From contig CP115966.1 in the NCBI GenBank assembly GCA_027941995.1, positions 1 to 64,000 on the forward strand: a DNA stretch of 64,000 nucleotides. Direction: 5' to 3'. This stretch comes from Erythrobacteraceae bacterium WH01K. Its GTDB lineage: Bacteria; Pseudomonadota; Alphaproteobacteria; Sphingomonadales; Sphingomonadaceae. Every line of letters starts with the position of its first letter. Position 1 is the first letter of the stretch. Shown piece after piece: positions 19,020 to 51,200 of this stretch. A model generated the notes under the pieces. It ran no database searches. It saw only the letters and a program-made list of their open reading frames with translations, and was not told the origin of the DNA. Made by a program: the position numbers and the translations under genes.

Positions 19020-19108
19020 GTTGGTGAACAGGCATATCATATAGATTCAAATAGGGTGGCTTCGACCCCTTAATGTCGCGGTATTACCTACTTTGAATAA
19101 GTATGTAT

Positions 19109-19771
19109 ATGGTAACATATACATCAAAGAATTCGAGAAGCGAGTGGAACAGTTGGAACGCGATGCGTCACAGGTGCCACAATCCTAACAACCCCGGATT
19201 CGAATGGTACGGAAAAAGAGGCATCACAGTCTGCGAACGCTGGCGAAAGAGCTTTCAGCATTTCGTAGAGGATATGGGCACCAAGCCCGGCCCCGATTAT
19301 AGCTTAGATAGAATTGACAATGACGGTCCATACACACCGGAAAACTGCCGCTGGGCGACGAGAGCAGTCCAAGCAAAAAACCGCAGTAAGAAAAACAGAA
19401 CCTACGTAAGGCGAAATTACACATTCGACGGAAGAACCGAAAGCGCTCAGGCATGGGCAAAAGAACTCAATTGCAGCGTAGGCGGGTTTAGGTACAGGGC
19501 GAATAAGGGATGGAATTACCTTCAACTCATAGGAGCAGCCCCTCCCCCTTCCCGCTCAGGTTGGAGCATGGCGTTCAACCAGTACCCAAGAAACTCCATT
19601 CCTGTAACGATTGGCACGAGAACGATGTTGCCTAAGGAATGGGCCATCCAAGCCGCGATACCACTTGATACACTGAACGCTCGTATCGCTAAGCTACAAA
19701 GAATGGGCATAACCAAGATACCGACAGACGTACTACGTCCGCCAAGAACCTACACCCGCAGGAAAAGGTAA
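19109..19771 (+). CDS. HNH-type phage endonuclease-like protein
   Basis: 220 aa. N-terminal part matches the free-standing phage HNH style: WNSWNAMRHRCHNPNNPG, YGKRGITVCERW and SLDRIDNDGPYTPENCRWAT, which carries the H/D/N residues. Two helix-turn-helix-like modules follow (FDGRTESAQAWAKELNCSVGG; MLPKEWAIQAAIPLDTLNARI), like the DNA-binding tails of homing enzymes. TAAGTA at 19098-19103 lies exactly 5 nt before ATG 19109, so I prefer this to ATG 19103. There is no usable RBS, which fits a leaderless message. Confidence 0.7.
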   Translation: MVTYTSKNSRSEWNSWNAMRHRCHNPNNPGFEWYGKRGITVCERWRKSFQHFVEDMGTKPGPDYSLDRIDNDGPYTPENCRWATRAVQAKNRSKKNRTYVRRNYTFDGRTESAQAWAKELNCSVGGFRYRANKGWNYLQLIGAAPPPSRSGWSMAFNQYPRNSIPVTIGTRTMLPKEWAIQAAIPLDTLNARIAKLQRMGITKIPTDVLRPPRTYTRRKR

Positions 19772-19834
19772 GTCTTCGGTCGTAACCTAGGAAGCAGACG
19801 CTACCGTACTTCTAGCAAACAGGAGTAGATAGCA

Positions 19835-20011
19835 ATGCAGACCGTAGAAGATATCTTGGAACAGTTTTCCGCCCACGCTGATACTGACCCCCAGCACTGG
19901 AATACCAAAAGCGGTAACATTCCCTTCGGTGACACCAATGTTGAATACCAACGCTTCGACGACCACTTCATCGTTACAGTACGCGGTGAGCAATACACCC
20001 TAAAGCGTTAA
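19835..20011 (+). CDS. Small acidic protein, unknown
   Basis: 58 aa: starts MQTVEDILEQFSAHADTDPQ and ends HFIVTVRGEQYTLKR. AGGAG is eleven bases before the ATG, and the frame runs cleanly to TAA. Rich in Asp, Gln and aromatic residues, with no Cys and no membrane part. It is a candidate small regulator, including a recombination directionality factor, but nothing in the sequence proves this. Confidence 0.6.
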   Translation: MQTVEDILEQFSAHADTDPQHWNTKSGNIPFGDTNVEYQRFDDHFIVTVRGEQYTLKR

Positions 20012-20075
20012 TCCAACGCAAGCGGAAAGGCAGGGCATTGCTCTGCCTTCTCCATGAGTGAAAACCGCAGGGCTG

Positions 20076-20336
20076 CTATCTTAGATAGGCTTCTATCATC
20101 CAACGGAATCCACGGAAGATTAGTTGCATTAGCACGAAACCAACCGTTGCGAAAATTGCAGTCGAACGGAATGAGTGCGAATAGTAGGGAATGTTGGCAC
20201 TGATAAACAGCGCAACCCAAATCACGATATAGGCCCACCACTCCGGCATGGGCCACATGACCGTGTAATAGCTGAAGAGGGCGGCGGTCACTAGACAGAG
20301 ATTGTCTATCCACTTCTTGCTTGATTTAATATCCAT
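20076..20336 (-). CDS. Small three-helix membrane protein
   Basis: 86 aa from MDIKSSKKW at 20336, with three hydrophobic segments (LCLVTAALFSYYTVMW, WAYIVIWVALFISANI, AIFATVGFVLMQLIF) and charged ends. Divergent from the gene at 20380 and close to the spanins, so a holin role is possible but unproven. The RBS is poor. No TAARTA motif was seen. Confidence 0.5.
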   Translation of the reverse strand: MDIKSSKKWIDNLCLVTAALFSYYTVMWPMPEWWAYIVIWVALFISANIPYYSHSFRSTAIFATVGFVLMQLIFRGFRWMIEAYLR

Positions 20337-20379
20337 CCGGCGCTCGATGTTCTGGCTCCCAAAGCGAGGAGCATACCAG

Positions 20380-20772
20380 ATGAACTTGGAAATACGACAT
20401 CTAAAGCAGTTCAACGCAGACCTGAACCGAGACATACTCTCTGATGCCCGGAGAAGCCCTGTACGAGTACCCGACCAATCCTTGCTTATGCGGGTAGTCG
20501 AATACGGCAACCGCTACTTAGAGACCCATAAAAAGACAGCCGAGGACGATAACGCGGTCATATGGTTTGACGTACACTTCGGGGAACCAGCGCAAGTAGG
20601 TATGACCTACGCATACCATCCCCTAGCGCCGCTTGACGACCTATACGGCGAACCTCATTTTTGGCGAATGTGGTCGGAGATAGCCAACATTGCGGATGGA
20701 AAGACCATTTACACGTTAGAGCAGTGCCAGCGAGATTTCGCGGCCTACACGATGCAAGCCATCACAGGCTAA
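20380..20772 (+). CDS. Conserved-looking phage protein, unknown
   Basis: 130 aa from ATG 20380, chosen because GAGGAG lies nine bases upstream; the open frame begins earlier. Contains VIWFDVHFGEPAQVGMTYAY and WRMWSEIANIADG. No signal or membrane part. It precedes the spanin pair, the spot where an endolysin is often found, but it shows no lysozyme, amidase or peptidase motif I recognise. Confidence 0.5.
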   Translation: MNLEIRHLKQFNADLNRDILSDARRSPVRVPDQSLLMRVVEYGNRYLETHKKTAEDDNAVIWFDVHFGEPAQVGMTYAYHPLAPLDDLYGEPHFWRMWSEIANIADGKTIYTLEQCQRDFAAYTMQAITG

Positions 20773-20850
20773 CTAGTCAGGGGCGGAGGACGTTTCCCTA
20801 TCTAGGGGCGACTGCTCAACCTCCGTTCCAACTCAGCACTAAGTAGGTAC

Positions 20851-21201
20851 ATGCCTACTATCCCTCACAAGTTCGCCGCAGCCCTAATTGCTACCGCCTT
20901 CGCCCTAGCTGCCATCTTCATGGGTTGGTCCCGTTATGATGCAGCACAGGAACGTGCAACAGAGCTTGAAGCGCAACTCAAGACAGCCAACGAGGAATTA
21001 GACCATGTTCAAACGGTCCTCGATGCGGTTGACGATAACGCAGAGACCACGAGGGAGATAGATGAACGAACACGAAGGATTAAGGATGAAGTCGATGCCC
21101 TACAGGAAACTCAGGAATGCGTTAATAGTGACTCTGTGCGGTTGGTCATTGACCGCTTGCAGTCATACCAGCAATCCATCGAGGATAACGTATCCCAGTG
21201 A
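20851..21201 (+). CDS. Rz-like inner-membrane spanin
   Basis: 116 aa: short basic start, one transmembrane helix (FAAALIATAFALAAIFMGW), then a long coiled coil (AQERATELEAQLKTANEELDHVQ). This is the i-spanin form that, with its lipoprotein partner, fuses inner and outer membranes at lysis. TAAGTA at 20840-20845 is 5 nt before the ATG and no RBS is present. Its 3' third encodes the o-spanin start in another frame. Confidence 0.75.
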   Translation: MPTIPHKFAAALIATAFALAAIFMGWSRYDAAQERATELEAQLKTANEELDHVQTVLDAVDDNAETTREIDERTRRIKDEVDALQETQECVNSDSVRLVIDRLQSYQQSIEDNVSQ

Positions 21202-21352
21202 CATGTTCATCTGCAAGGATGCACCGGACGCTGCCAAGGTGGGGACAGACAATGACCTCTCGGTGTTCGTCGCTGAATTGTTTGGCGCTCACGAGGACTG
21301 CAAGAGCAAGCTCAACAAGGCAGGCGAAGTGGTGAACGGACCAGATAAATAG
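21086..21352 (+). CDS. Rz1-like outer-membrane lipoprotein spanin
   Basis: 88 aa from MKSMPYRKL at 21086 (AAGGA nearby), a lipoprotein signal with lipobox SLTAC, then a short mature part. It overlaps the Rz-like gene by 116 bp in a different frame, the classic embedded Rz/Rz1 arrangement. Mature Rz1 proteins are usually Pro-rich; this one is not, and it has two cysteines (ICKDAPDAAK, HEDCKSK). Confidence 0.7.
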   Translation: MKSMPYRKLRNALIVTLCGWSLTACSHTSNPSRITYPSDMFICKDAPDAAKVGTDNDLSVFVAELFGAHEDCKSKLNKAGEVVNGPDK

Positions 21353-21387
21353 GAGTACCAAGGGGTTTTCAGTCTCCCTTGGCTCCT
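21351..21387 (+). terminator. Hairpin after the spanin genes
   Basis: CCAAGGG (21358-21364) pairs with CCCTTGG (21376-21382), extended outside by AGGAG/CTCCT with a two-base bulge. It overlaps the Rz1 stop. A short T-run is lacking, so strength is uncertain; position suggests an end of the transcript. Confidence 0.5.
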
Positions 21388-21453
21388 TAGACGACACAAT
21401 GGGGGCGGCTCGTTTTCATAGCGCGGGTCGCCCCTTTCTCATGACAAGGAAAG

Positions 21454-21482
21454 GCCCGCCCTGCAAATGCTGCAAGACGGGC
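21454..21482 (-). terminator. Terminator of the minus-strand gene at 21507
   Basis: On the minus strand GCCCGTCTTGCA pairs with TGCAGGGCGGGC (two G-U pairs) around GCATT, followed by CTTTCCTTGT. Lies 24 bp past the stop of the minus-strand gene. Confidence 0.65.
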
Positions 21483-21506
21483 CATAGAGCGTCTGTGAGG
21501 GTAGGC

Positions 21507-22046
21507 TTACTCCTTGGACAGCGCCTTATAGTCAGCAAGCACTTTCGCCTTATCCCAGCCCTTCTTCTCGACGTTGGTTTCGAGCAATTCCATTGCGCGC
21601 TCCTCACCATATCGAGTGACGTTGCGACGGTGGACCTTCGCAGGGTCAATGGCGCGAGTAGCAGTTGAGCTTTCGGTTTTCCCACTGCCATCCAACGCCT
21701 TGCGGATATCATCATCCATCTTGCCGGCCTGAATTGCCTCCTTGGCTTCCGAGAAGAACTCGAACACATCGCGTCTGAGGATTCTATCATTGCCCGTTCG
21801 CCCCGTCGTGTTGCCCACTACGGACTTGGTGCCGATGTTGAGGCCCACGGATGCACCATCCTTGCCTTTTTGGGTTTTGTACCAGCGGGTGATGTTCTTT
21901 TTCGGCTCCCGCTTGATAGAAGCAACGACCTCATCCAACTGCTTGAGCAGCTTCTCCTTAGCAGCTGGCAGTGGGTCAACCTCGACGGGTTTGTCCCATG
22001 CAGCCACAATTTCTGGGTCCGACTTGAGAAAGTCCAGATTAGCCAT
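21507..22046 (-). CDS. Phage protein of unknown function, single-gene unit
   Basis: 179 aa, highly charged, no membrane part. The start ATG 22046 follows AGGAGA. Contains a helical N-terminal half (LPAAKEKLLKQLDEVVASIKRE), a middle Gly/Thr-rich stretch (GASVGLNIGTKSVVGNTTGRTG) and a basic C-terminus (DPAKVHRRNVTRYGEERAMELL). It is the only minus-strand gene in the left half with its own terminator, so it might be expressed in the lysogen or act as a DNA-binding regulator; that is inference from position and charge only. Confidence 0.6.
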   Translation of the reverse strand: MANLDFLKSDPEIVAAWDKPVEVDPLPAAKEKLLKQLDEVVASIKREPKKNITRWYKTQKGKDGASVGLNIGTKSVVGNTTGRTGNDRILRRDVFEFFSEAKEAIQAGKMDDDIRKALDGSGKTESSTATRAIDPAKVHRRNVTRYGEERAMELLETNVEKKGWDKAKVLADYKALSKE

Positions 22047-22157
22047 TTTGTATCTCCTGTGTGTGCTCTGGTTTAGTAACCTGAACCCGCGATTGCACTT
22101 ACCTACCTGCTAGTCAACTCTATAGGGCAAACGACTGGTCTGATAAGTAAGCTTGCG

Positions 22158-22355
22158 ATGAAGGTTTACAAAGTCCGCATACAGATTCCCAAAGGCACTC
22201 CCATCATGGAAATAACCATGACGATGCTCAGAGCACAGGCATGGATAAGAGAGTTTGCACCAACGACATATGTGGCCTCCTACCAAAACCCAAACAACCT
22301 TACGTTCGTCCTAAGTGACGCAAACGCAGCAATGAGAATGAGGCTTAGCTTATGA
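22158..22355 (+). CDS. Small phage protein, unknown
   Basis: 65 aa, starting MKVYKVRIQIPKG, a beta-strand-like N-terminus. TAAGTA at 22144-22149 is 8 nt before the ATG. First of three coupled small genes (ATGA overlap with the next). Mixed basic/hydrophobic, no motif recognised. Confidence 0.55.
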   Translation: MKVYKVRIQIPKGTPIMEITMTMLRAQAWIREFAPTTYVASYQNPNNLTFVLSDANAAMRMRLSL

Positions 22356-22735
22356 AGAACTTCCCGAAGAGAATGGTCCGATTGTATGGCTTCATAGGCA
22401 AGGAGGAGAACCTAGATATTCTGGATTATGTCCGCGCATTGAGGAACAGCGAAATCTTCCGCCAGACAATCCTACCAAGAGAACTCGCCGAGATATTCCT
22501 AGACGACACTGACGTTATGATGGACCAAGTGGAATGGCTGGCAGACCATTGTGAGGCGGATGAGTACAGACTGATAGACCTAGCGACTCCCATGCATGTC
22601 CTGACAGCTGACGATATGGAAGCTTACAAGACAGCACGGATGAATGGAGCGGAACCCACTGACCTCGTCTACCAGCTCATAGTGGGTTTTGACTGCGAGG
22701 ATGCGTACGAGCGATTTACGGAGAAATCATGGTAG
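22352..22735 (+). CDS. Acidic phage protein, unknown
   Basis: 127 aa, strongly acidic in the middle (DDTDVMMDQVEWLADHCEADEYRLID). Overlaps the genes on both sides (ATGA at the start, 7 nt at the end), so the three are translated from one message. No known motif. Confidence 0.6.
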   Translation: MKNFPKRMVRLYGFIGKEENLDILDYVRALRNSEIFRQTILPRELAEIFLDDTDVMMDQVEWLADHCEADEYRLIDLATPMHVLTADDMEAYKTARMNGAEPTDLVYQLIVGFDCEDAYERFTEKSW

Positions 22736-22986
22736 GACGAGCGGACGTTATATTGCTAGAAATGCACCTCAGACAATTGGCGAGAGGTCAGGGTATCAGT
22801 ATCACATTGCTGAATGGCAAGCATAACACGGATTATGAAAACCCCGTCCAGTTCAAGATTGGTTCCAATGGCTTTTTCCTAGAAAGAGACAACCTAGCAG
22901 ACCTCATGCCACTGCTCGACCCCGAACTGGATAGCTATTGGCTTGATGAGTACCTGCGGCCCTTTCTAGAACAGTACGCGGGCTGA
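22729..22986 (+). CDS. Small acidic phage protein, unknown
   Basis: 85 aa, predicted mainly helical with a beta-like middle (YENPVQFKIGSNGFFLERDN) and an acidic end (LLDPELDSYWLDEYL). Third gene of the coupled set. No motif recognised. Confidence 0.55.
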   Translation: MVGRADVILLEMHLRQLARGQGISITLLNGKHNTDYENPVQFKIGSNGFFLERDNLADLMPLLDPELDSYWLDEYLRPFLEQYAG

Positions 22987-23037
22987 AGGATAGACTTGCT
23001 TTCGACCCCTTATGGGGAGAACATTCCAAACATCCGA

Positions 23038-23066
23038 TAAGTAGAAGTGTCGAGAAAGGAGACACT
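23038..23066 (+). promoter_or_regulatory. TAAGTA motif followed by an RBS-in-loop hairpin
   Basis: TAAGTA (23038-23043) is followed by AGTGTC (23046-23051) and GACACT (23061-23066), a perfect 6-bp stem with the Shine-Dalgarno AGGAG near the end of its loop. The ATG of the next gene begins on the base after the stem. Presents or hides the RBS depending on folding. Confidence 0.6.
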
Positions 23067-23180
23067 ATGCTGATATTAACTGCCGTATGGCTAATTGGTT
23101 CGGGCATCGCCCTCACGAGCTGCTTCAACACAATACATGACCAGATGGAAAAGACCTCCAAGCAACGAGGTGACGAATGA
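23067..23180 (+). CDS. Tiny membrane or lipoprotein-like peptide
   Basis: 37 aa: MLILTAVWLIGSGIALTSC, a hydrophobic stretch ending in a lipobox-like TSC, then a polar tail NTIHDQMEKTSKQRGDE. Strong RBS in the loop of the preceding hairpin. It overlaps the next tiny frame as ATGA. Role unknown. Confidence 0.55.
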   Translation: MLILTAVWLIGSGIALTSCFNTIHDQMEKTSKQRGDE

Positions 23181-23248
23181 GCACTTGGGTAGACGAGAGA
23201 TATGAACCTGTTTTCCATCTTGGAATGAGTGAAAGTTTCGAGGAATAA
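23177..23248 (+). CDS. Possible 23-residue coupled peptide
   Basis: ATG 23177 overlaps the stop of the preceding gene (ATGA) and the frame encodes MSTWVDERYEPVFHLGMSES and a few more residues before TAA. Coupling is the only support; it may not be functional. Confidence 0.3.
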   Translation: MSTWVDERYEPVFHLGMSESFEE

Positions 23249-23358
23249 GGCTAGAAAAGCACCTGTTTTCCACGATAAGTTGGTATGGAATTGAAGGTGG
23301 TTTGGTACCAAGAACCACGTAAGACCGCGCTCTGACATTGTTGGTGGTAAATATGTGC

Positions 23359-23898
23359 ATGGCAAAGAGAAACACAACCACCCCAAAAACTGATAATCTG
23401 CCCAAGAAATCGGACATTTCTCAGGTTTCCACGCGGCAAAAACAGCTCACCCCCAAGGTGAGTAACAAGATAAAGGAAGCAATCCGCCCTAAGCGATGCC
23501 AACCCACTGCTAAAACGGATAAACTGCTTCTAAAGATAATTGACCGCATTGCCTGTGGGGAGTCACTACTCCACATATGCCAAGACGACGATATGCCAGC
23601 GTATCGAACGATGATGCGATGGCAGAGGGAAGACCCATCCCTAGTGGAACAGCTGGACCTAGCATATGAACTTCACGCTAGAGCGATGGATGATTATGCG
23701 GACGATATCCTGAGTGGTGGCATTATGAGTACGGGCAATATCCTACGGGATAAGGAGCGCGTTGCTCACTTGCGTTGGCGCCTAGGTAAACTCAACCGTA
23801 AGAGGTATGGAGACAAGCAGCAGGTAGACGTTGTGAACCATGAACCATTCATCCTTGATGCAAAGATAATCAAAGGTCCCGGTGGGGATGGAGTATAA
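23359..23898 (+). CDS. Terminase small subunit
   Basis: 179 aa. ATG 23359 is chosen because TAAATA (23348-23353) lies exactly 5 nt before it; the longer frame has no RBS. N-terminal Lys/Thr-rich tail, then a DNA-binding helical part (LLLKIIDRIACGESLLHICQDDDMPAYRTMMRW) and the C-terminal segment typical of small terminases (DILSGGIMSTGNILRDKERV ... LRWRLGKLNRKRYGDKQQVDV). Recognises phage DNA for packaging. Separated from TerL by a recombinase gene. Confidence 0.85.
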   Translation: MAKRNTTTPKTDNLPKKSDISQVSTRQKQLTPKVSNKIKEAIRPKRCQPTAKTDKLLLKIIDRIACGESLLHICQDDDMPAYRTMMRWQREDPSLVEQLDLAYELHARAMDDYADDILSGGIMSTGNILRDKERVAHLRWRLGKLNRKRYGDKQQVDVVNHEPFILDAKIIKGPGGDGV

Positions 23899-24011
23899 GG
23901 GCCATAGAACCCCGACCACACCGTAATGGCACCCAGATAGCTAGACAATCATACCGGCCCTTAGAGAGCGTCTATGGCGCTCATTGGTGTAACGCAGGTT
24001 CACTTCACGTT

Positions 24012-24045
24012 AGCGTAACAATCATCAATTCCGCCAAGCGTAACA
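24012..24045 (+). repeat. Direct repeats AGCGTAACA, candidate recombinase site
   Basis: AGCGTAACA occurs at 24012-24020 and 24037-24045, 25 bp apart. Just upstream TAACG and CGTTA (about 23990-24011) face each other. The cluster is 60-110 bp before the small serine recombinase gene, where resolvases usually have their res site. TTGACA at 24051 could be a -35 box. Confidence 0.4.
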
Positions 24046-24102
24046 TTCGGTTGACAGGTAGTTCATGTGACAACATCGCTCCATGTCTAAAGGAGATGTT
24101 AC

Positions 24103-24639
24103 ATGAAGATAGGATACGCTCGCGTAAGCAGCAATGAACAGGACCTTACCATCCAGCTTGATGCCCTGAGTGAATGTGAAAAGGTCTTTAGTGAAAAGGT
24201 TAGCGGCACTTCGACAAGCAAACGAGAACAACTCCTCCTCTGTATGGAGTTCATACGAGAAGGTGATGTTCTGGTTGTAACCCGCATCGACCGACTGGCC
24301 CGTAGTGTGAAGGACTTGGAAGGCATAGTGGAGACGTTGAAGGCCAAGGGTGCGGGTCTGCAAGCAACTGAACAATCCATCGACACCACTACACCAGCAG
24401 GGATGGCATTCTTCCAGATGCTAGGCGTGTTCGCGCAGTTTGAAACCGCTATACGGCGAGAACGACAGATGGAAGGGATTGCGAAGGCAAAGGCTCGCGG
24501 GGTTTATGCCAATCGTAAGCGGACCATAGATAGGGATAAGGTCAAGCAACTGCTCGCAGAGGGCAACACTCCATCCAGTGTGGCAAAGCAGCTTGGAATC
24601 AGCCGTATGTCTATATGGCGTACTCAACAGGAAGCATAG
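24103..24639 (+). CDS. Small serine recombinase (resolvase/invertase family)
   Basis: 178 aa. Catalytic Ser in IGYARVSSNEQDL, then VVTRIDRLARSVKDLEGIVETL with the active-site arginines, the long E helix (AGMAFFQMLGVFAQFETAIRRERQMEGIAKAKARG), and a C-terminal helix-turn-helix (DKVKQLLAEGNTPSSVAKQLGISRMSIWRT). AAGGAG precedes the ATG. An inverted repeat (CATGT..AACATC 24067-24080, and GATGTTACATG ending in the start codon) overlaps the RBS and could allow autoregulation. Its position between TerS and TerL is unusual. It lacks a TAARTA motif. Confidence 0.92.
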   Translation: MKIGYARVSSNEQDLTIQLDALSECEKVFSEKVSGTSTSKREQLLLCMEFIREGDVLVVTRIDRLARSVKDLEGIVETLKAKGAGLQATEQSIDTTTPAGMAFFQMLGVFAQFETAIRRERQMEGIAKAKARGVYANRKRTIDRDKVKQLLAEGNTPSSVAKQLGISRMSIWRTQQEA

Positions 24640-24797: not shown

Positions 24798-24803
24798 TAA
24801 GTA
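24798..24803 (+). promoter_or_regulatory. TAAGTA motif, example of the leaderless class
   Basis: TAAGTA, five bases (GTGGT), then the TerL ATG at 24809. No Shine-Dalgarno is possible in that space. If TAARTA acts as a -10 box the message would start at or next to the AUG. See the finding on this motif for all positions. Confidence 0.55.
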
Positions 24804-26197: not shown

Positions 26198-26267
26198 CCG
26201 AGCGTCCTCGCATAAGTAAACGGTCAGGGGAAAATCCCTGCTACCAATTTACTAGCGAGGGTTAATC

Positions 26268-27659: not shown

Positions 27660-28726
27660 TGTCAGTGAACGAGGACCTGCAAGACAGGGCTATACGACAC
27701 GCCCTTGCGCTACAGCGTTACAGCAAGGGGCTGAGTGACAGGATTGTTCGCCTCCTGAACAGTGCGGACAAAGAGCTGATTGAAAAGCTGGCAGCACGAC
27801 TAGCAGCCATTGATGAGCGTGGAATTGATAACGGTCCAAAGACCACCAAACGTATCAAGGAAATGCTGAGCGAGATCTCGGCCATCAACAGCGCAATCTT
27901 CGCTTCTATTCACGATACGCTTGAGGGTGAACTCACAGACTTTGCAGATGCAGAAGCACGGGGCCAGCAGAAGGCGTTGGAGAAGGCCATAGTGGTCAAC
28001 GTGGCAACCAAGCTGCCCAGTCCTCGCCGCATCGCTGCAATCGCTTCTCAGACGCCCATACAGGGCATTCTGCTCAAGCCTTGGGTCGAGGGCATGGGCA
28101 AGGCTCGCATCGAGCGCATCGAGCAGCAAGTTCGGCTTGGTTTGCTTGAGGGTGAAGGCACAGACGCGATTGTTCGCCGCATTAGGGGAACGCGAGCAGC
28201 CAAATACCGCGATGGCATTTTGGACAAAAGCAGGCGTTCCACTCAGGCGCTTGTCCGCACTGCGACGACACAGGTTAGCAATGTCGCGATGCAGGAAACA
28301 TGGAAGGCCAATTCCAACCTCATCAAAGGGTGGGAGTTCATGGCAACTCTGGATAGCAGGACGACTGTAACCTGTGCTGGATTGTCGGGACAGGTTTTTC
28401 CGATTGGTGAAGGCCCTATGCCTCCCCGTCATGTCAACTGCCGCTCCATCAGCGTACCAGTAACTAAGTCGTTCCGTGAACTTGGTCTGGACAGGGACGA
28501 ACTCACCCCTGCTCAACGGGCAAGCATGGATGGACAGGTACCCGGCGATACCACGTTCAAGGATTGGTTAGAGCGCAAGGGTGAAGCTACGCAGAACGAG
28601 GTACTTGGACCAGAGCGAGCAGCTATCTTCCGTTCTGGAAAACTCAACCTAGACCAATTCATCAAGAATGACGGCTCAGTGCTTACATTGGACGAGTTAA
28701 AACGCCTCTACCCTTCCCTCGGCTAA
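27659..28726 (+). CDS. Phage head morphogenesis protein (SPP1 gp7 / Mu F type)
   Basis: 355 aa. The first half is helical; the C-terminal half carries the family core: QALVRTATTQVSNVAMQETW, then WEFMATLDSRTTVTCAGLSG and MPPRHVNCRSISVPV with conserved Cys, Pro and His. Such proteins enter the prohead with the portal. Start overlaps the portal stop (AATG). Confidence 0.88.
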   Translation: MSVNEDLQDRAIRHALALQRYSKGLSDRIVRLLNSADKELIEKLAARLAAIDERGIDNGPKTTKRIKEMLSEISAINSAIFASIHDTLEGELTDFADAEARGQQKALEKAIVVNVATKLPSPRRIAAIASQTPIQGILLKPWVEGMGKARIERIEQQVRLGLLEGEGTDAIVRRIRGTRAAKYRDGILDKSRRSTQALVRTATTQVSNVAMQETWKANSNLIKGWEFMATLDSRTTVTCAGLSGQVFPIGEGPMPPRHVNCRSISVPVTKSFRELGLDRDELTPAQRASMDGQVPGDTTFKDWLERKGEATQNEVLGPERAAIFRSGKLNLDQFIKNDGSVLTLDELKRLYPSLG

Positions 28727-28802
28727 ATACGATTGAGGACTACGTTCTCATCAACCGCGGTTACGCCGCACCCCTAGAAGGTTACGCCGGAAGGAATACA
28801 AT

Positions 28803-29481: not shown

Positions 29482-29513
29482 TAAATAACGGGCCGGAGCA
29501 AAAACTCCGGCCC
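29482..29513 (+). promoter_or_regulatory. TAAATA motif followed by a 9-bp perfect hairpin before the capsid gene
   Basis: TAAATA (29482-29487), then GGGCCGGAG (29490-29498) pairing with CTCCGGCCC (29505-29513) around CAAAAA. The capsid ATG is 57 bp further. There is no T-run, so the stem more likely protects the 5' end of a highly expressed message than ends transcription. Confidence 0.6.
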
Positions 29514-29569
29514 GACAGCATTCGAGGTTGTCGGAATTTGACAACTCACAATGCTGGAGAATACACTCA

Positions 29570-30635: not shown

Positions 30636-30656
30636 CGTCATTCGGTAAATATAGAC

Positions 30657-32133: not shown

Positions 32134-32202
32134 GGGGTAGCGCAATAAATAGCGAGTGCATCCACAAGGGCTGCATCACTTACTAATAAACAGGAGACGA
32201 AA

Positions 32203-33181: not shown

Positions 33182-33231
33182 CTTCTACGTCATATGGCTA
33201 AATAGTCGGCCTAGAATAAGGAGAAAGACAC

Positions 33232-33687: not shown

Positions 33688-34019
33688 TCGAAGTCCTTGA
33701 ATGGAGTAACACCAAGGACTTAGGCCTTCTATATGCTCAAGCCGCAGCAGGTGTGGAATTCGCGATAGAAGCAGTTTCCAAGGCCCCAACTGAATACAAT
33801 GAGTTCTACTGGTGGGCGTTCAATGAATTAATCACTGAACGCCCCATTGGTATGTCAGCTGGACCTATCCCCTATAGCTCTATCGTTATGTTTTGTAACG
33901 AGTATAACATCACCGGATATCAAAAGGTGGTGTTCTCTTATGTAATCCGTGGACTGGATAACAAGCACCTAGAGTTCCTAGGCAAACAGTTGGAGCAGGC
34001 AAACAAGCCCAAGCGGTAA
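33684..34019 (+). CDS. Tail assembly chaperone, T extension (frameshift product)
   Basis: 111 codons in the -1 frame from CTA 33684 to TAA 34017-34019. It begins LIEVLEWSNTKDLGLLYAQA and ends FLGKQLEQANKPKR. There is no good start of its own (GTG 33753 has no RBS), so it is translated as the fusion 33232-34019, 262 aa in total. Its stop codon is the first half of TAAATA at 34017-34022. Confidence 0.82.
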   Translation, partial: LIEVLEWSNTKDLGLLYAQAAAGVEFAIEAVSKAPTEYNEFYWWAFNELITERPIGMSAGPIPYSSIVMFCNEYNITGYQKVVFSYVIRGLDNKHLEFLGKQLEQANKPKR

Positions 34020-34045
34020 ATACGGGTACCATAAATGAGGTACCC
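34017..34045 (+). promoter_or_regulatory. TAAATA plus hairpin that masks the tape-measure RBS
   Basis: TAAATA (34017-34022) then GGGTACC (34024-34030) pairing perfectly with GGTACCC (34039-34045), loop ATAAATGA. The likely Shine-Dalgarno GAGGT overlaps the 3' arm and the ATG is at 34047, so folding would limit translation of the very long tape-measure gene. Confidence 0.65.
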
Positions 34046-37898: not shown

Positions 37899-37912
37899 CG
37901 GTAAATAGAGGT

Positions 37913-39027: not shown

Positions 39028-39049
39028 CCCCTTTAGGTAAATATGGAGT

Positions 39050-44761: not shown

Positions 44762-44781
44762 GCAGAGGCATAAGTATTGAT

Positions 44782-45345
44782 ATGAGTTACCTTGCCATAA
44801 TCACAGATACCAACACCTTAGACAGTTATGTCATGGAGGTAGGAGACCTACCAGAAGGTTGGACTAGTGTTGAACTGCCATCTGATTTCAATCCCGAATG
44901 TCAGCATTGGGATATACAAGGTTCAGAGGTAGTATCCTGCTATGCGGACAGTGAGCAGTTATTGGCACAGAGTGTAGCTATCGAACGTCAAACTCTGTCC
45001 AGCGAATACACTACGAGCGGAGAAAACAAGTCCCTCGTCTATGCTTACAAGGCGAATGAGGTCAGGTCGTATAGGAGATTGACACAGACTGCAATTAACA
45101 CTCTTTCCGTGGAAACCCTCAAAGAAGATTACCCATTCCTATATTGGGATGCCCAAGCGCATGGTGATAGCATTGCGGACTCCTTGGCACGATTCGAGGC
45201 TGGAATAACTGCGACGATTTCTAATCTGGCTATGATTGAAGCAGCTTATCAAAAGGCAAAGCTTGATATCAGTCACGCGGAAACACTTGAAGAGAAGAGA
45301 GCGGTTGCAACACTGCCGACGGACTATCCACCCCCTTCTTGGTAA
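44782..45345 (+). CDS. Tail fibre-associated protein, possible assembly chaperone
   Basis: 187 aa. TAAGTA (44771-44776) is 5 nt before ATG 44782, which I prefer to the upstream start overlapping the fibre gene. N-terminus MSYLAIITDTNTLDSYVMEV, helical C-terminal half ending TLPTDYPPPSW. Position right after the fibre suggests a fibre chaperone or small tip protein; no diagnostic motif. Confidence 0.6.
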   Translation: MSYLAIITDTNTLDSYVMEVGDLPEGWTSVELPSDFNPECQHWDIQGSEVVSCYADSEQLLAQSVAIERQTLSSEYTTSGENKSLVYAYKANEVRSYRRLTQTAINTLSVETLKEDYPFLYWDAQAHGDSIADSLARFEAGITATISNLAMIEAAYQKAKLDISHAETLEEKRAVATLPTDYPPPSW

Positions 45346-45383
45346 ATATGGAGAAGGCGGTATATCCGCGGAGGCGGTGACGT

Positions 45384-46097
45384 ATGATAAAGGAAGCAGT
45401 AGAAGGGATTACCTCACTCGCAACCGCACTGCGAAACCGCCCCGTATCTACCATCATAGCAGCATTGATTATTGCGTTCGCGTTCATACTTTACACCAAG
45501 ATTGATTTCTTGGTCAAAGACACCAGTCCTAGTGCAGAAGTCGAGACTGCTCGATTCAATGCTAGCCGAAAAGCCGATAAGCTCATCAATCTGGAATTAG
45601 AGCGATTGCGCGTTGAAGCCAACGCTGACCGTGCCTTGGTGCGTACCTTCCATAACAACGAGAAGGATATGTCTAGAACCGTCCACTTCCGCAGCGTCAA
45701 GACGGAGTGGTACGTGACTCGTGATGGCATCATCCTGTCGCCCACCGCGTTGCAGCCCTTCCCGCTTGGACCCTTGCAGGATATCACCGAAACGATGTTT
45801 GGTTCACAAGTAACCACGCCTTCCTGCATATTGGGAGACGTTAGCGAAGTTGATATGCCCGCTGCTTACAGGCGCTATCTGGAAGCCAATGGGGTTGAGG
45901 CGTTCGCGCAATGCCCCTTGGTGAGCGAAGAAGGGGCGCCTATTGGATTTGTCGGCGTGGGCTTCGTTCGGCAGCAGACCATCACACTCAAGGAACCCTT
46001 AGAGACCATCGTGCGGCGCAGGACCAGCAAAATCGAGAATGTACTTCACAAACTGCATGACGAGACCAAAGTAAAAGCTTGGTACGATATATTCTGA
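45384..46097 (+). CDS. Membrane-anchored GAF-like phage protein
   Basis: 237 aa. One transmembrane helix (TIIAALIIAFAFILYTKI), a helical linker, then a domain with a GAF-like pattern: ALVRTFHNNEKDMSRTVHFRSVK near the start and CPLVSEEGAPIGFVGVGFV as the later strand pair. Similar membrane-plus-sensor proteins with an 'FHN' motif are found near lysis genes of various phages. TAAATA (45343-45348) overlaps the previous stop and is followed by a GCGG/CCGC stem. Ligand and role unknown. Confidence 0.58.
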   Translation: MIKEAVEGITSLATALRNRPVSTIIAALIIAFAFILYTKIDFLVKDTSPSAEVETARFNASRKADKLINLELERLRVEANADRALVRTFHNNEKDMSRTVHFRSVKTEWYVTRDGIILSPTALQPFPLGPLQDITETMFGSQVTTPSCILGDVSEVDMPAAYRRYLEANGVEAFAQCPLVSEEGAPIGFVGVGFVRQQTITLKEPLETIVRRRTSKIENVLHKLHDETKVKAWYDIF

Positions 46098-46111
46098 AAT
46101 CTGGTGAGCCG

Positions 46112-46396
46112 TCAGAGGTCGTCCATTTCTTTGGGTGCGACCTTCACCGCCTTAATAGCATCGCCTAGTTCGCGTATCCCCTTCTCGGCTGCAAGGCCGA
46201 TGATGAGCGCGGTGATGATATAGGCGAGCCAATCTGGCGTGGTACCGACCATCACGAGCCATGTAGTCGCAGCACTGGGGAACCAGTACCCCATGACGAA
46301 GAACAGGGTCAGCAGAGCAAACGTGATAGGACGGAACCACCGCATGAAAAGGGTAGCTAGGTCAGCTGCTCGCTCTGTGAAGGTTTGGAACGTCAT
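46112..46396 (-). CDS. Probable holin
   Basis: 94 aa from MTFQTFTERAADL at 46396. Two hydrophobic helices (PITFALLTLFFVMGYWF; WLVMVGTTPDWLAYIITALIIGLAA) and a charged tail (IKAVKVAPKEMDDL), the size and shape of phage holins. TAAATA on the minus strand (46406-46401) ends 4 nt before the ATG, which fixes the start and rules out the longer frame. Convergent with the GAF-like gene, 14 bp apart. Confidence 0.62.
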   Translation of the reverse strand: MTFQTFTERAADLATLFMRWFRPITFALLTLFFVMGYWFPSAATTWLVMVGTTPDWLAYIITALIIGLAAEKGIRELGDAIKAVKVAPKEMDDL

Positions 46397-46457
46397 ACCG
46401 TATTTACCGGCAGGATATGCAAAAGGGGCGACTTTCGCCGCCCCTTCTGTGTGAGCG

Positions 46458-47018
46458 TTAGGACGGATATTTGGCCATGAACGCTTCATGGTCTGACGTA
46501 TCGTAGAACTCTAGGTAAATGTCTAAGTCATCCATAGAGCGATTTACCTCCGACCACATAGAATATGGCCCCTTCAAATTAGCCGCACACCAACCGAATA
46601 TTCTGGAGATGTAGTCGGAAGCATCCTCCTGACCCCGCTTATAGAGGAGCACATAACAGCTTTCGGAAAACCCAACATACTCCTTCGCAACAGGCTTGGG
46701 TAGGTTTAGCTTCACTTCCTCCTCTGCAAAAATATGGCGGTCGGTTTCAGTTAGGTCGATAACCTCTGGCAAAGCCGACGGGGATTCCGTCCACATGCTT
46801 AACAGGGCCGCGACTTCTTCGTTGTTCTTGCATCCATGAATAGCGCGCAGGTACGCAAGGTAGCCGGGTGGGTACTCCGATAGGTCGTACTCGAAGGTCT
46901 GACCATCTAACTCAGGGTCGTCATACTCGTGCGGCAGTGTATAGCGCACCACTGGTGCGGGTAATACGGTAAGCTCGCGCTTGTGAGTCGTGGAGGTAGC
47001 GGGTAATGGGTTAGTCAT
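46458..47018 (-). CDS. Phage protein, unknown
   Basis: 186 aa from MTNPLPATSTT at 47018 (AAAGGAG upstream). Two regions: a Pro-rich N-terminus with YDLSEYPPGYLAYLRAIHGC, and a C-terminal half with WCAANLKGPYSMWSEVNRSMDDLDIYLEFYD. The N-terminal YLAYLRAIHGCKNNEEVAALL resembles a tail-chaperone or regulator helix, but I cannot name it. The leader contains a perfect 7-bp stem AGCCTGC/GCAGGCT (47069-47045 on this strand). Confidence 0.58.
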   Translation of the reverse strand: MTNPLPATSTTHKRELTVLPAPVVRYTLPHEYDDPELDGQTFEYDLSEYPPGYLAYLRAIHGCKNNEEVAALLSMWTESPSALPEVIDLTETDRHIFAEEEVKLNLPKPVAKEYVGFSESCYVLLYKRGQEDASDYISRIFGWCAANLKGPYSMWSEVNRSMDDLDIYLEFYDTSDHEAFMAKYPS

Positions 47019-47078
47019 ATTGGCTCCTTTGCCGTCATAGAAGAAGCCTGCCGCGATGAGCAGCAGGCTAGTTTTCAA

Positions 47079-47413
47079 GTGACGGGCAAGGAGTTCGGCC
47101 CGTTGAATCCCTTATAGGTCAGCTGGCCTTCTGGCGCAATATATTTCTGAAAAGGGTTGGCCCGCCCCAGAGATGGTAAGAGCGGGCCTGTAGGCGGAGA
47201 CCGACTTAACGGGCCTACGCAGGGTCGGCTACTGCTACACTGCGCTACCTGTCGCGCCGCCCAAGGCTAACCCGCCATGTGGGTTAAAAGCACATAGCGG
47301 GTCAGACTCTTTGAAAGCGTAAGCAGATACCCTCGGAGACTTGCTGCTTACGTGGACCATTATACGCAGGACCACCCAGCGTGTCATTATTCGTGTCATT
47401 TGCCCTGCGCTGC
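47079..47413 (-). other. Hairpin-rich noncoding block between the helicase and the gene at 46458
   Basis: No gene. Four well-paired stems: GGCCCGC/GCGGGCC (47159-47165 and 47182-47188), GTAGGC/GCCTAC (47190-47195 and 47213-47218), a 12-bp stem with one mismatch (47270-47281 and 47291-47302, ACCCGCCATGTG and partner) and CGTAAGCAG/CTGCTTACG (47318-47326 and 47344-47352). No TpsiC loop is present, so these are not tRNAs. In minus-strand direction it would be the spacer RNA between two phage genes. Confidence 0.55.
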
Positions 47414-47497
47414 TAGGGTTCGTGGACAAACCTTGCATACCAGCAATCTGTCGGTAAGTGCGGAGAGTGATCAATTAACTTTCGTGGAGATAATCGA

Positions 47498-47989
47498 GTG
47501 CGTGCAACCTATTTCCTCATAGCTTCCTCCATATTGTTGGCAGCCTGTGGGCAATCAACCGATTCAACGGCATCGCGAAATGGCACGGAGCAAGTTCAGA
47601 GCCAATCGGTGCCCACTGCGAGCGAGAACGATGGGAATTGGTCCTTACTTAGCGAGTATGTCGGTCAGCATCCCTTGGATAGCAGGCTCTATGACAAAAG
47701 CCCGATAGCGCCCGCGCTCAGGAACCTTCTCGACGACAAGCTGAACGTGCTGATGCAGAACAGCGAGACAGCCGCTCCCTTGCAACGCGATGGCGAAGTT
47801 TTCTTCACGTCGGGCAACAAGGATAATGAGGGGGGTAGCGACGCATTCTATCTGCTTGTCGATCCGTCAGCCAAGGCAGTCGAGGTCGGCCTTTGGGAAA
47901 ACGGAGAGTTGACCGTTTATAAGACCCCAGGTTCCGACATTCTGAAACCAACGGATATCCAGACGACAATATCGAACGCGGAGATGTAA
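47498..47989 (+). CDS. Lipoprotein passenger gene inside the IS
   Basis: 163 aa, GTG start after GTGGAGA. Signal [18 protein letters not shown] with lipobox LAAC, then a Ser/Thr/Gln-rich linker and a compact domain ([20 protein letters not shown] ... [33 protein letters not shown]). The last part resembles small periplasmic proteins of Sphingomonadales chromosomes. Higher GC than the phage. It lies between the left inverted repeat and the transposase, so it moves with the element. Confidence 0.75.
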
Positions 47990-48014
47990 ACGTCGCTGTG
48001 GCCCGGCAGGGACG

Positions 48015-48064
48015 GCCAGCAATCCTTGACGCGTTACCGATCCACTGATTCAAGGCTGGCTTTT
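48015..48064 (+). terminator. Terminator between passenger gene and transposase
   Basis: GCCAG and CTGGC plus inner CCTTGA and TCAAGG form a long stem, followed by TTTT (48061-48064). It would insulate the transposase from passenger transcription. Confidence 0.6.
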
Positions 48065-48074
48065 GGAGGCGGCC

Positions 48075-48859
48075 TTGGGCGAACGGATTGACGTTACGGA
48101 TGAAGAATGGGAAGTGATCGGGCCGCTGCTGCCGTCTGAGCGTGGTCGCGTATGCCGCCCGGCGCTAGATAATCGTCCCTATTTCGAAGGCATGATTTGG
48201 ATCGCGCGGACCGGCGCGCAGTGGCGACACTTGCCGGACGAATATGGCAAGTGGAACAGCGTGTTCCGACGTTATCGACGATGGGTCACGACCGGTGTGT
48301 TCGATGCCATGCTCGAGACACTGGCCGAACTGGCGGGGCGGCATACAGCCGCCGACATGATCGACAGCACGGTGGTCCGGGCACATCATTGTGCTGTCGG
48401 TATAAAAAAGGGACTCAGAAAACCGAGGCGCTTGGCCGATCGCGAGGCGGCTTCACGACAAAGCTCCATGCCATATGCGATGCCAGAGGTCTCCCGCTAG
48501 GGTTCGTTCTGACACCTGGACAGGCGCACGATGTGCAGGGCTTTGCTCCACTGTTCCGCATGATAACCGACCGGATCGAGGCCTTCCTGGCTGATCGGGG
48601 CTACGATGCCGATGCGATCCACAAAGAGAGCGAGGCAGCCGGTGCGGAAGCGGTGATCCCGGCTAAGGTCAACCGGCGCAATCCCGCCCCGCACGACCGC
48701 ACCAAATACAAATGGGGCAACCTCATCGAGCGTTTGTTCAACAAACTCAAGAACTGGCGCAGAGTGGCAACCCGCTACGACAAAACCAAGGAGTCCTACC
48801 TCGGCTTCGTCGCGCTCGCTTCAGTCAAACTGTGGATACCCTTTGTCCACGAGGCCTAG
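48075..48859 (+). CDS. IS5-family transposase, two frames joined by -1 frameshift
   Basis: orfA runs 48075-48500 (TTG start, GGAGG upstream): VTDEEWEVIGPLLP, GMIWIARTGAQWRHLPDEYG, first catalytic Asp in MIDSTVVRAHH. orfB continues in the -1 frame: GRSRGGFTTKLHAICDARG, LADRGYDADA with the second Asp, and the C-terminal YKWGNLIERLFNKLKNWRR with the catalytic Glu. The slippery heptamer A AAA AAG at 48404-48410 is in the right register. The stop TAG (48857-48859) is supplied by the CTAG target, outside the element proper. Confidence 0.88.
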
Positions 48860-50251
48860 TTTCTCGGCCTTCCTCTTTGCATAGTTTCGGGCGTTCCGTT
48901 CTTTCTGGCTCATCGGTGCCTTGCCGATAGAAGGTCTGCCACTCTTCGAAGGTTCAGGCAGCGAGTGCTTCATTTTTTCGATGGTACATCCTTCAAACTT
49001 CTCGGCCAGCCATTCAGCAGTAGCCCTATCTGGGACTATTGCTTCTACGGGACGGTCAACAAGTGGGTCACGTAGTGAACAGCGCATCATTGCCTGATAG
49101 GCATTTTGATGATTCAAAGTTTCAGCAATTTCATTGTCGCTCATCCCAATGTTTTTTAGAAAGCCCCAAGCTGGCGTCCCTTGGTTTCTTACGCTCAAGA
49201 GAACCACATTATCGACCGTTTTCCAATTCGCTTTGTCCAGGCCATGTGAGATGCCGGGTAGTCGGTTAATTGGGCTAAAGTTTTCAGGATATCGGTCAGC
49301 TGGCACCTGCCAGATGAAAGGCTTGCCATTCAAATGGCCAACTACCGTATTCCAAACCGCATCGAACATCTCGGTGCCATCGTCTTCTTCAATTCTGTAG
49401 AACTGCTTACTGGCCTTGCGCTCGAACAAGTAGGTCAGTTTCAACCGCTCGCCATTATGGTGCTCAGTGTAGCGAAGCGTTGATGCCAATTCACCATGGG
49501 GTTGCCACGACACTTTGAACAGCCTGCTCCATACGTGATAGAGTTCTGTTTGGAAGAAGTTTGCACCAAGGAAGGTTGTGGTCTTCCATCCTTTCGCGAA
49601 ATCCTCCTTCTTGATACCAAAGAAGTTGATGGATGCGCGCTTGGTACTAGGGTCTATCAAGTCGGCATAATGTTCTGGATTGGTTACGACGAGCACATCA
49701 TCCCGCAGCACCAAATTAGCCAAGTCCTTGAACGACTCTAAGTTTTGGTCGCCATGCCTTCCGCTTGCTAGGTCTTCTAGCGCCGTCTTGTTTCTAGGCT
49801 CAACTAACGAAATTCCATCCACAAGAACGTTATCGACCTTGATATGGTCTGTGATGCCTCGATGGGTGATTGGTATCTTCAGTTCGATACTATTGAACAC
49901 TGACGGGATTTCATCACATACCAGATGCCAGAACTTCCTGTAAGCCTTAGGCAAGCGGTCCAATGCCTTGTGAGTGATGAGGAGGACTTCTCCGTGATGT
50001 GGTACCGCTGCTTGCATATGCGCTACGATGGAATCAACCACGTTCTTCCTGTTCGAAGAACTAACAATGGTTCGAATCTTGATGTTCGGGTCCATCTGCT
50101 TGATGTTTCGTACCGTCTCTCTGATTAGGTCTTTTGATGGTTGTGCGATTAGAACCTTCTCTTCAGCTCGAACGCGCTCTACGGTCCATTTTGAAATGCC
50201 GTAGGTCTTACCTGACCCCGCAGGTCCGTCTTGATATTGAAATGTGGTCAC
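48821..50251 (-). CDS. Phage P-loop/DEAD-like helicase, C-terminus altered by the IS
   Basis: 476 aa as read. GTG 50251 follows AAGAGG. Walker A DGPAGSGKTYGISKW at residues 8-20, Walker B HLVCDEIPS near 110, and later superfamily-2-like motifs (ITHKALDRLP; TTTFLGANFF). The C-terminal GRPSIGKAPMSQKERNARNY is a basic motif seen in replication-associated proteins. Probably acts in phage DNA replication. The last 11 residues (GLVDKGYPQFD) come from IS DNA; before insertion the protein ended KLAAQGK. The only replication-type gene I recognise in the prophage. Confidence 0.72.
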   Translation of the reverse strand: MTTFQYQDGPAGSGKTYGISKWTVERVRAEEKVLIAQPSKDLIRETVRNIKQMDPNIKIRTIVSSSNRKNVVDSIVAHMQAAVPHHGEVLLITHKALDRLPKAYRKFWHLVCDEIPSVFNSIELKIPITHRGITDHIKVDNVLVDGISLVEPRNKTALEDLASGRHGDQNLESFKDLANLVLRDDVLVVTNPEHYADLIDPSTKRASINFFGIKKEDFAKGWKTTTFLGANFFQTELYHVWSRLFKVSWQPHGELASTLRYTEHHNGERLKLTYLFERKASKQFYRIEEDDGTEMFDAVWNTVVGHLNGKPFIWQVPADRYPENFSPINRLPGISHGLDKANWKTVDNVVLLSVRNQGTPAWGFLKNIGMSDNEIAETLNHQNAYQAMMRCSLRDPLVDRPVEAIVPDRATAEWLAEKFEGCTIEKMKHSLPEPSKSGRPSIGKAPMSQKERNARNYAKRKAEKLGLVDKGYPQFD

Positions 50252-50396
50252 GTGTATTACCTCTTAATGAAACAAAAATCCCACCAACTGGGACCTTCAA
50301 AGTCAGCTGGTGGGATTTAAGTTTGTTTCATAAAGAGCGATACTTGGTCCCGCCGTACTACTGGCGTTGAAGGTCCAAGTAGCTTACTTCTATTTA
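50252..50396 (-). promoter_or_regulatory. Structured leader of the helicase gene, possible RNA switch
   Basis: TAAATA on the minus strand (50396-50391) starts a leader of about 140 nt. Element A: ACTTGG...CCAAGT with inner CGCC/GGCG (50382-50341). Element B: a long hairpin, arms 50331-50304 and 50290-50267, ending just before the RBS AAGAGG. The loop of B contains TTGAAGGTCC, perfectly complementary over 10 nt to GGACCTTCAA inside element A. A and the A-B loop pairing are mutually exclusive, like the pseudoknot control of some plasmid rep genes. Confidence 0.6.
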
Positions 50397-50959
50397 TCCA
50401 ATATACGACACATGGGGTCCGAAAAGCGATATTTTTCTGAAGTTTTTCATTCAACTGGCGCGCTGCTCAAAAATTCAACGAAAGTCTTTAATAAAAGATA
50501 ATGTTGAAAATACCTCTCCCAAGGAAGTGACTGAAAACCAAATCAAGGAAGTACACATCTACTCAGTGGATGGAGCGAACGAGCGACATATCCACGAGTT
50601 GATGTTACCCGCATGGCGTGAGTGAAGCGAATGCCATGTGCGCTATCATAAGGAACCGATATAGGTGGAACTGCTATCGCACTTCGCACCTACACATGCC
50701 ATCTGGATGGCTTCGTAAACTCAGCAATCCAATTGATGACATGTGACTACTTCTTGGTCTGATTGATTTCATCTGGATTGACCGAAATTAGGCATCACCA
50801 AGAAGGAATTTCTTTCCCTAATTAGGATGATGATAGGAGCAGCGCGCCTTCATCGCTCTTTCTTTCTACCAATGGTACCGCGCAGTTCTTCGCGTCATTA
50901 TTCATGTTCTCGCTTTCCTGAATACTGACGGCCTGAACCCTTAGGCAGTAGAATGGCTT
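50397..50959. other. 563-bp noncoding region with hairpins and an A/T-rich part
   Basis: No gene of convincing quality on either strand. The left third is A/T-rich (around 50455-50510). Perfect short stems include GTGGAT/ATCCAC (about 50567-50596), GCATGGC/GCCATG (about 50611-50640), AGGTG/CACCT (about 50665-50692) and GCCATC/GATGGC (about 50698-50711). Location next to the helicase suits a replication origin, but I see no iterons. Confidence 0.4.
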
Positions 50960-51193
50960 ATGACCGAATTACTTACCTACTATAACGTTCGTTGCCAATT
51001 CTGCGGTACTGACCAGCGCGTCTTAACCCAGAAGAAAGCTTGCGCTACCTGTAACAGCTACAACCTTAGAGCCGAGAAGAACGGCATTCCACTTCTCAAA
51101 CCCATCGAGCTATCTAGGATAATGACTGTTCCAGAATTGCTCCAAGACGAGGAGTACCTCGCTCACAGGGCTGCATGGAGAGCGGCCAACTAA
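50960..51193 (+). CDS. Small zinc-ribbon phage protein
   Basis: 77 aa with two CxxC pairs (CQFCGTDQRV and CATCNSYNL), a likely zinc ribbon, followed by a helical end (TVPELLQDEEYLAHRAAWRA). No RBS and no clear TAARTA motif precede it. Its stop codon TAA is part of the TAAGTA in front of the next gene. Confidence 0.6.
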   Translation: MTELLTYYNVRCQFCGTDQRVLTQKKACATCNSYNLRAEKNGIPLLKPIELSRIMTVPELLQDEEYLAHRAAWRAAN

Positions 51194-51200
51194 GTAGTGG

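Follow-up and report, generated by a model that had tools for sequence, protein, structure and literature searches.

The hexamer TAAATA, sometimes TAAGTA (together TAARTA), stands 4-5 nt upstream of start codons in a prophage of Erythrobacteraceae bacterium WH01K, within a 64,000-nt stretch of DNA (contig CP115966.1, positions 1 to 64,000; hereafter the window) that opens contig 1 of a 2.9-Mb genome. The prophage is of the siphophage type, has a lower GC content and occupies about 15.6-55 kb of the window, with limits that are inferred and a gene set that comprises terminase, portal, head, tail and tape measure genes. With a probability that we put at roughly 0.77, the hexamer alone forms the core of a dedicated late promoter in several differently built sphingomonad temperate phages. 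The best reading of the sequences is a class of lone -10-like late promoters, which may be leaderless at about half of the sites.

Placement and conservation of the hexamer

All 24 TAARTA sites of the window lie inside 15.6-55 kb, and none lies outside. This number is within chance (18.4 in shuffled sequence, standard deviation 4.0, with 11 of 100 shuffles reaching 24), and the total count was dropped as evidence. The placement of the sites is unusual, as the original prediction had proposed for a hexamer common by chance. Open reading frames (ORFs) were called by length, with overlaps dropped. In our own gene list, TAARTA occurs 4-6 nt before an in-frame start in 10 of 40 prophage genes; five other spacing ranges give 0-1 genes, and 59 permuted degenerate hexamers average 0.68 (maximum 5). 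When 20 elements are pooled without gene calls, the first ATG or GTG follows at a spacing of 4 nt at 52 sites and of 5 nt at 53, where each permuted hexamer yields 2.1 and 2.9, respectively; the other spacings hold 18, 17, 8 and 13 sites at 0-3 nt and 2-8 each at 6-12 nt. Among 331 conserved genes from 21 elements, the distance from motif to start is 4 nt in 26 and 5 nt in 30, with 2, 4 and 1 genes at 0-2 nt, one each at 3 and 6 nt and none at 7-11 nt. At spacings of 3-6 nt in the same genes, 12 permuted hexamers reach 0-2, and two that overlap TAAATA reach 14 and 18. Three motif-free genomes (G251, G157 and G238; genomes are given by G numbers and loci by L numbers) are included in the 331-gene count and omitted from the pooled, one-base-variant and spacer-base counts. 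Positional enrichment over controls, which had been set beforehand as a test, is thus seen in the 331 genes, in the 20 elements and in the window.

The hexamer is strict. At 4-5 nt, TAAATA precedes 53 starts and TAAGTA 5, and the remaining 17 one-base variants together precede 2 (TGAATA 1, TCAATA 1); TAATTA, TAACTA, TAAACA, TAAAGA and TAAATG are all at 0. Since TAAGTA is almost the only one-base variant at this distance, the TAA stop codon does not account for the motif.

The element is conserved in close relatives, which had been set as a further test. Of 17 IMG/VR loci found via the terminase, the 12 close ones were used for the strand count. In these 12, TAARTA sites on the late strand outnumber those on the other strand by 81:3, and the other five loci contain no TAARTA site; the ratio in the longer G009 contig is 17:6. 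The ATG of the terminase large subunit (TerL) has TAARTA 4-5 nt upstream in 11 of the 12, and in 9 of these 11 no other start lies before the matched part of TerL. The relatives are not independent, since L018 and L034 are one prophage and L009 and L010 are close. Five named terminase relatives are sphingomonads (Croceicoccus, Sphingobium, Sphingomonas). Nine loci with distant terminases contain no site, but these are mostly GC-rich, and a portal query for relatives gave no match.

The motif is not specific to this phage, contrary to the earlier proposal, and is common to sphingomonad prophages with three different portal families. The best family matches of the window prophage are phrog_979 for the terminase, for which a distant phrog_38 match is also seen, and phrog_145 for the portal. 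In an HK97-type siphophage of Sphingomonas sp. Leaf242, a strain with two motif-bearing prophages, and its relatives (phrog_9/12/10; portal phrog_12), 22 sites are on the late strand against 7. Two G015 prophages (terminase phrog_38, portal phrog_156) contain 10 and 9 TAAATAN4-5ATG matches; this genome was chosen as the standout in a count of that pattern over 118 genomes, in which the motif-rich G066 showed no cluster. The head genes of the three prophage sets have no mutual BLAST matches, and G375 is a mosaic of the window-type and HK97-type sets. In G081, 124 TAAATAN4-5ATG matches are found against 65 for the reversed pattern, and several AT-richer genomes of the order were noted alongside it.

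In the window, 20 of the 24 sites precede an ORF, in agreement with the roughly 20 prophage genes originally proposed, and four (21346 +, 20520 -, 47651 -, 50975 -) are not followed by an obvious gene start. On the plus strand, the spacing is 5 nt for TAAGTA at 19098..19103 (ATG 19109, HNH endonuclease), 20840..20845 (ATG 20851, Rz-like spanin, a weak match), 24798..24803 (ATG 24809, TerL) and 44771..44776 (ATG 44782), and for TAAATA at 23348..23353 (ATG 23359, terminase small subunit, with similar spacing in relatives), 30646..30651 (ATG 30657, head-tail adaptor, directly 3' of a terminator-like hairpin) and 37902..37907 (ATG 37913). It is 6 nt for TAAATA at 39038..39043 (ATG 39050, a 1903-aa protein), 4 nt for TAAGTA at 51191..51196 (GTG 51201, GIY-YIG nuclease) and 8 nt for TAAGTA at 22144..22149 (ATG 22158), where a weakly similar G003 gene has 5 nt. 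On the minus strand, TAAATA at 46401..46406, with a hairpin and T run 5' of it (by eye), lies 4 nt from the ATG of the gene at 46396.

Longer leaders follow TAAGTA at 23038..23043, ahead of a small ORF at 23067 that has a Shine-Dalgarno (SD) leader and is below the 60-aa ORF limit, and at 26213..26218 (portal gene, ORF from 26268). They also follow TAAATA at 28724..28729 (head scaffold gene 28803), 29482..29487 (major head protein (MCP) gene), 32146..32151 (tail protein gene 32203), 33199..33204 (3' of a terminator-like hairpin, with an SD leader to the tail chaperone gene 33226), 34017..34022 (tape measure protein (TMP) gene 34041), 45343..45348 (gene 45384) and, on the minus strand, 50391..50396 (helicase-like gene 50251). 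The spacings and leaders originally reported are exact, and, as was also claimed, no TAARTA lies just upstream of the integrase, PDZ cargo, resolvase, lipoprotein or AbiJ-like genes.

Sequence context and the proposed promoter

The bases between motif and start codon depend on the spacing. Spacers of 4 nt end in G in 24 of 28 cases (p 6e-16 against 127 SD-preceded starts), and spacers of 5 nt end in C or T in 27 of 30 (p 3e-5 against the same starts), as expected if RNA begins with a purine at about nt 4-6. No upstream element is detected in 195 sites: no position from -40 to -6 exceeds 0.08 bits, and there is no -35 element. The frequencies of T and A at the two bases before TAAATA are 0.11 and 0.39 in these sites. 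The host sigma70 promoter pattern (TTGACA/TATAAT, 16-18 nt apart) is not found at the motif sites. Sigma70-type sites are scarce at 15.6-35 kb, where a scan using the TANNNT rule gave 6 against 16.6 expected and listed one TTGACA/TACACT pair, at 29538-29567. Additionally, 114 of 227 late-strand sites have no ATG or GTG at 3-6 nt, and 44 sites without such a start have their own SD and a start within 44 nt.

Terminator-like hairpins occur in the 80 nt upstream of 25 of 227 sites, compared with 35 of 1080 random places, which is 3.4 times the random rate. Such a hairpin is present at the junction after the MCP gene in the window, G003, G004 and G009, and in the HK97-type G006:C9 and G258. Downstream of the motif, the MCP leader (with a 10-bp hairpin from nt 2), the TMP leader and the 23038 leader fold better than shuffled sequences (z -5.0, -3.7 and -2.8, respectively), and the 45343 leader folds no better than shuffles (z -0.8). 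Similar hairpins are found at the same place of the MCP leader in relatives. The hairpins at 34017 and 23038 cover the SD, and at 23038 it is the segment directly 3' of the motif that pairs with the SD region; both are predicted to collapse in an RNA that starts at nt 6, the TMP leader falling from -13.1 kcal/mol from nt 1 to -1.7 kcal/mol. They may be likened to T4 gene e, for which an excerpt of PMC3014915 describes a late-start RNA that escapes the hairpin covering its SD. The MCP hairpin is predicted to stay folded from nt 6 (-22.0 kcal/mol). Over 43 sites (two without a value at nt 5), no special role of nt 1-4 in read-through hairpins was detected (p 0.22).

In the mechanism that we propose, an early phage product would change the specificity of the host RNA polymerase core, and the altered enzyme would recognize TAAATA without a -35 element and begin RNA 4-6 nt downstream of it. 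At about half of the sites, the start codon would lie at the RNA start and produce a leaderless mRNA or a 1-nt leader; many other sites would give an ordinary SD leader, often with a hairpin from directly after the motif. Many of the late genes, or short groups of them, have a copy of the motif to themselves. A promoter is favored because of the bases at the spacer ends, the upstream terminators, the 44 sites with an SD leader and the scarcity of sigma70-type sites. The promoter class envisaged by the original prediction is supported by the placement and conservation of the motif, the upstream hairpins, the start-base pattern and the opposite-strand genes that carry it.

If this reading is true, sphingomonad temperate phages would possess a per-gene late promoter system that resembles that of T4 without a recognizable T4 sigma factor, and about half of the sites would give leaderless late mRNAs. 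The motif makes start codons predictable to the base, can serve as a tag for finding such prophages and leaves a short list of early genes among which a new transcription factor may be looked for. No description of the motif in sphingomonad phages is present among the literature matches listed, a coverage from which subscription papers are mostly missing.

Candidate recognition factors and alternative readings

A candidate for the specificity factor or its helper is the small early protein F1, whose gene (21510..22046, minus strand) has an SD upstream and no TAARTA. In the window and in most carriers, this gene runs opposite to the late genes; in G369 and G235 it shares their strand. A TTGACA-like box is visible by eye upstream of several F1 copies, and the scan listed none for the window copy. 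F1 is the family most widely common to the window type (10 of 11 elements) and the HK97 type (5 of 5), although four elements of each type were found through F1, which leaves 6 of 7 and 1 of 1 as the unbiased counts; the serine integrase is the next most widely common family. F1 searches matched 14 of 396 sphingomonad genomes, and the motif is enriched at 10 of 13 further F1 loci (weakly in G324, G393 and G235; 12:8 in G359, mainly by spacing). By comparison, 20 F1-less terminase loci of the order show no clear motif enrichment. These controls are 17 loci from 21 matched genomes and three terminase-like loci of the genus; one is another G015 place, and several are weak terminase matches, other families or GC-rich. 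The highest values are those of L100, with 11 against 8.3 for each permuted hexamer, and of L098, where an ATG lies near 2 of 3 sites.

The window F1 has no match in Pfam or PHROGs, and the other copies have weak matches only. Against PDB sequences, F1 gave a designed protein at E 0.48, and tblastn with two copies found no match in 50,697 phage records. The model of one copy consists of a helix, four strands and a helix (pLDDT 83); that of the window copy is less sure (pLDDT 77). Weak fold matches include Pur-alpha, WHY1, PBF-2 and MRP1/2 (Z 2.8-4.8, rmsd 3.4-9.6, 53-73 residues), all of which we take to belong to one PC4/PUR/Whirly superfamily of ssDNA-binding folds, built of a four-stranded sheet and a helix. 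These matches are not above the others, PC4 itself is absent from the fold matches listed, and Foldseek gave no match at E<=0.001. F1 is the leading candidate for the specificity factor or its helper, an assignment that is tentative and on balance doubtful. Somewhat less probable still is the fuller proposal that F1, perhaps with a PUR/PC4-like fold, would be a new promoter-specificity factor that directs host RNA polymerase to TAAATA, yields leaderless late mRNAs and has passed with its promoters between differently built phages. A replication protein that accompanies the system is an equally good reading of F1.

Several other families were noted around F1. A relative, F2, adjoins F1 in several prophages (L046 5163-5582, L050 8741-9139, L040 17312-17737, L049 16534-16935, L055 963-1379); it was not found in the window, and it is the only kind in G009. 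In L063 (G235; about 1372-1950, minus strand), an F1-like domain is in frame with a DNA methyltransferase-like part in a 472-aa ORF, and G258, G359 and G393 have similar methyltransferase-like ORFs in their F1 stretches. Motif carriers repeatedly encode small proteins that are alike in a C-terminal stretch of acidic residues followed by F/M-K/R-L/M-R (window 22158-22352; G015:C1 70620-70919 and 75382-75669; G006:C9 202679-202978); judged by eye, the 22158-22352 type is not universal and was rejected as a common partner. Family C6, which presumably resembles DUF2958, was not found in the window.

A number of observations weigh against a phage-directed promoter of this kind. For 12 of the 58 spaced starts, an earlier start is present in the same ORF. 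Inverted repeats begin at nt 1-2 after the motif at 16 of the 32 sites that have one, compared with 36 of 269 in shuffles; this would agree with an RNA end closer to the motif than nt 4-6. F1 is ruled out as a universal partner, being undetected in the two motif-bearing G015 prophages (best E 2) and unaccompanied by the motif at 3 of the 13 further loci. The weak F1-like matches in other Alphaproteobacteria, outside the order (7 genomes besides that of the window, 11 stretches), show no clear spacing signal: a G735 stretch has 12 TAARTA on one strand against 3.7, none 4-5 nt before a start, and five other stretches have 1-2 sites each at that distance. No sigma70 region 2 or region 4 domain was found in the prophage stretches (7 genomes or records each); the nearest, G007:C78:111855, lies about 4 kb past the stretch taken, at a place where the prophage end is not settled. 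At E<=1, none of 10 genomes or records matched the gp55 family (phrog_234, found from T4 gp55), a search that a much diverged gp55 could escape. PHROGs identified no RNA polymerase among 30 window proteins, the other window ORFs being outside that scan. The earlier statement that no sigma or RNA polymerase gene is seen holds for the prophage stretches and window proteins searched.

The alternative that survives best, possible though improbable, is that a host-encoded sigma factor or regulator, rather than a phage product, reads TAAATA. A host factor would still make the motif a promoter, so the likelihoods of the readings overlap in part and do not sum to one. In its favor, the carriers that have a name, five in number, all come from sphingomonads, the hosts encode several sigma factors, and none of the phage proteins is known to occur in all carriers. 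However, the host genome G000 contains only 8 TAAATAN4-5ATG matches, some of them prophage-borne, with 3 for the reversed control, and no clear enrichment is seen at the 20 terminase loci that belong to other elements of the order. The CtrA site, TTAA-N7-TTAA as given in an excerpt of PMC9437464, does not fit, as T immediately precedes the motif in 9% of sites.

Cleavage of a long late transcript near UAAAUA by an endonuclease, leaving leaderless or hairpin-capped mRNAs, is much less likely. The motifs do sit between late genes, and the repeats from nt 1-2 look as if they cap a cut end; but RNA would not reach the motifs that have terminator-like hairpins directly 5', the opposite-strand genes have the motif (46406 - and 50396 -), and the spacer bases fit an RNA start. 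Slightly weaker is the idea that F1 is a repressor or packaging protein that binds TAAATA as its operator. F1 is associated with the motif and lacks it before its own gene, yet an operator would not be expected to keep a fixed distance from the start codon, and the G015 prophages carry the motif without F1. A translation signal in place of the SD, the position that the motif occupies at the 4-5 nt sites, is more improbable again, given the half of late-strand sites that lack a start at 3-6 nt, the 44 with their own SD and start, and the terminator-like hairpins upstream. The upstream terminators, start-base pattern and opposite-strand genes thus speak more for a promoter than for a signal in RNA processing or ribosome binding. 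A chance pattern, or one produced artificially by TAA stops beside short intergenic gaps, can practically be dismissed: the total count is within chance and some copies use a TAA stop, but other TAA-containing hexamers are at zero at that spacing and the motif is conserved over diverged phages.

Other genes of the window and known late-promoter systems

The window prophage also contains an IS4/IS5-type transposase (DUF4096) at 48063-48856, an insertion within it. Probable cargo consists of a PDZ/SHOCT protein (17304-18566) behind the serine integrase and an AbiJ-like protein (52854-53918) near the other prophage end. A DNA-invertase-like resolvase (24103-24639) lies between the terminase subunits of the window type, in an orientation that varies among relatives. 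A terminase-like gene with 42-44% identity over about 160 residues is present at G000:C1:255603-256088 and at one place each in G001 and G002, and its presence in all three searched genomes of the genus is perhaps a sign of an old shared element.

A comparison with known systems places the T4 late promoters (the gp55/gp33/gp45 system) closest in architecture. As described in excerpts of two papers (PMC2988020, PMC3014915), these have an AT-rich lone -10-like element with TAAATA, no -35 element and copies before late genes, and some have hairpins over the ribosome site. The original likeness to T4 stands for this architecture. It does not extend to the 8-bp TATAAATA consensus, since only TAAATA is present here and the preceding TA is not conserved; nor is gp55 detectable, and the start codon is 4-5 nt away at about half of the sites, in sphingomonad prophages of siphophage and other types. 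The system is not assigned to the T4 type, given the lack of both the TA of TATAAATA and a detectable gp55.

The late promoters of the phiKZ non-virion RNA polymerase (TATG) are likewise very short phage late elements, according to an excerpt of PMC4666361. TATG overlaps the start, whereas the sphingomonad motif lies upstream of it, and no phage RNA polymerase is among the 30 window proteins. A further known system is N4 late transcription, which uses N4SSB and host sigma70 RNA polymerase; F1, as a putative DNA-binding counterpart, has a weak fold match. The leaderless promoters of Deinococcus-Thermus, as outlined in part of PMC12340547, also place a -10 element directly before the start codon; there it is a general mode of the phylum, whereas here it is a strict TAAATA in sphingomonad prophages.

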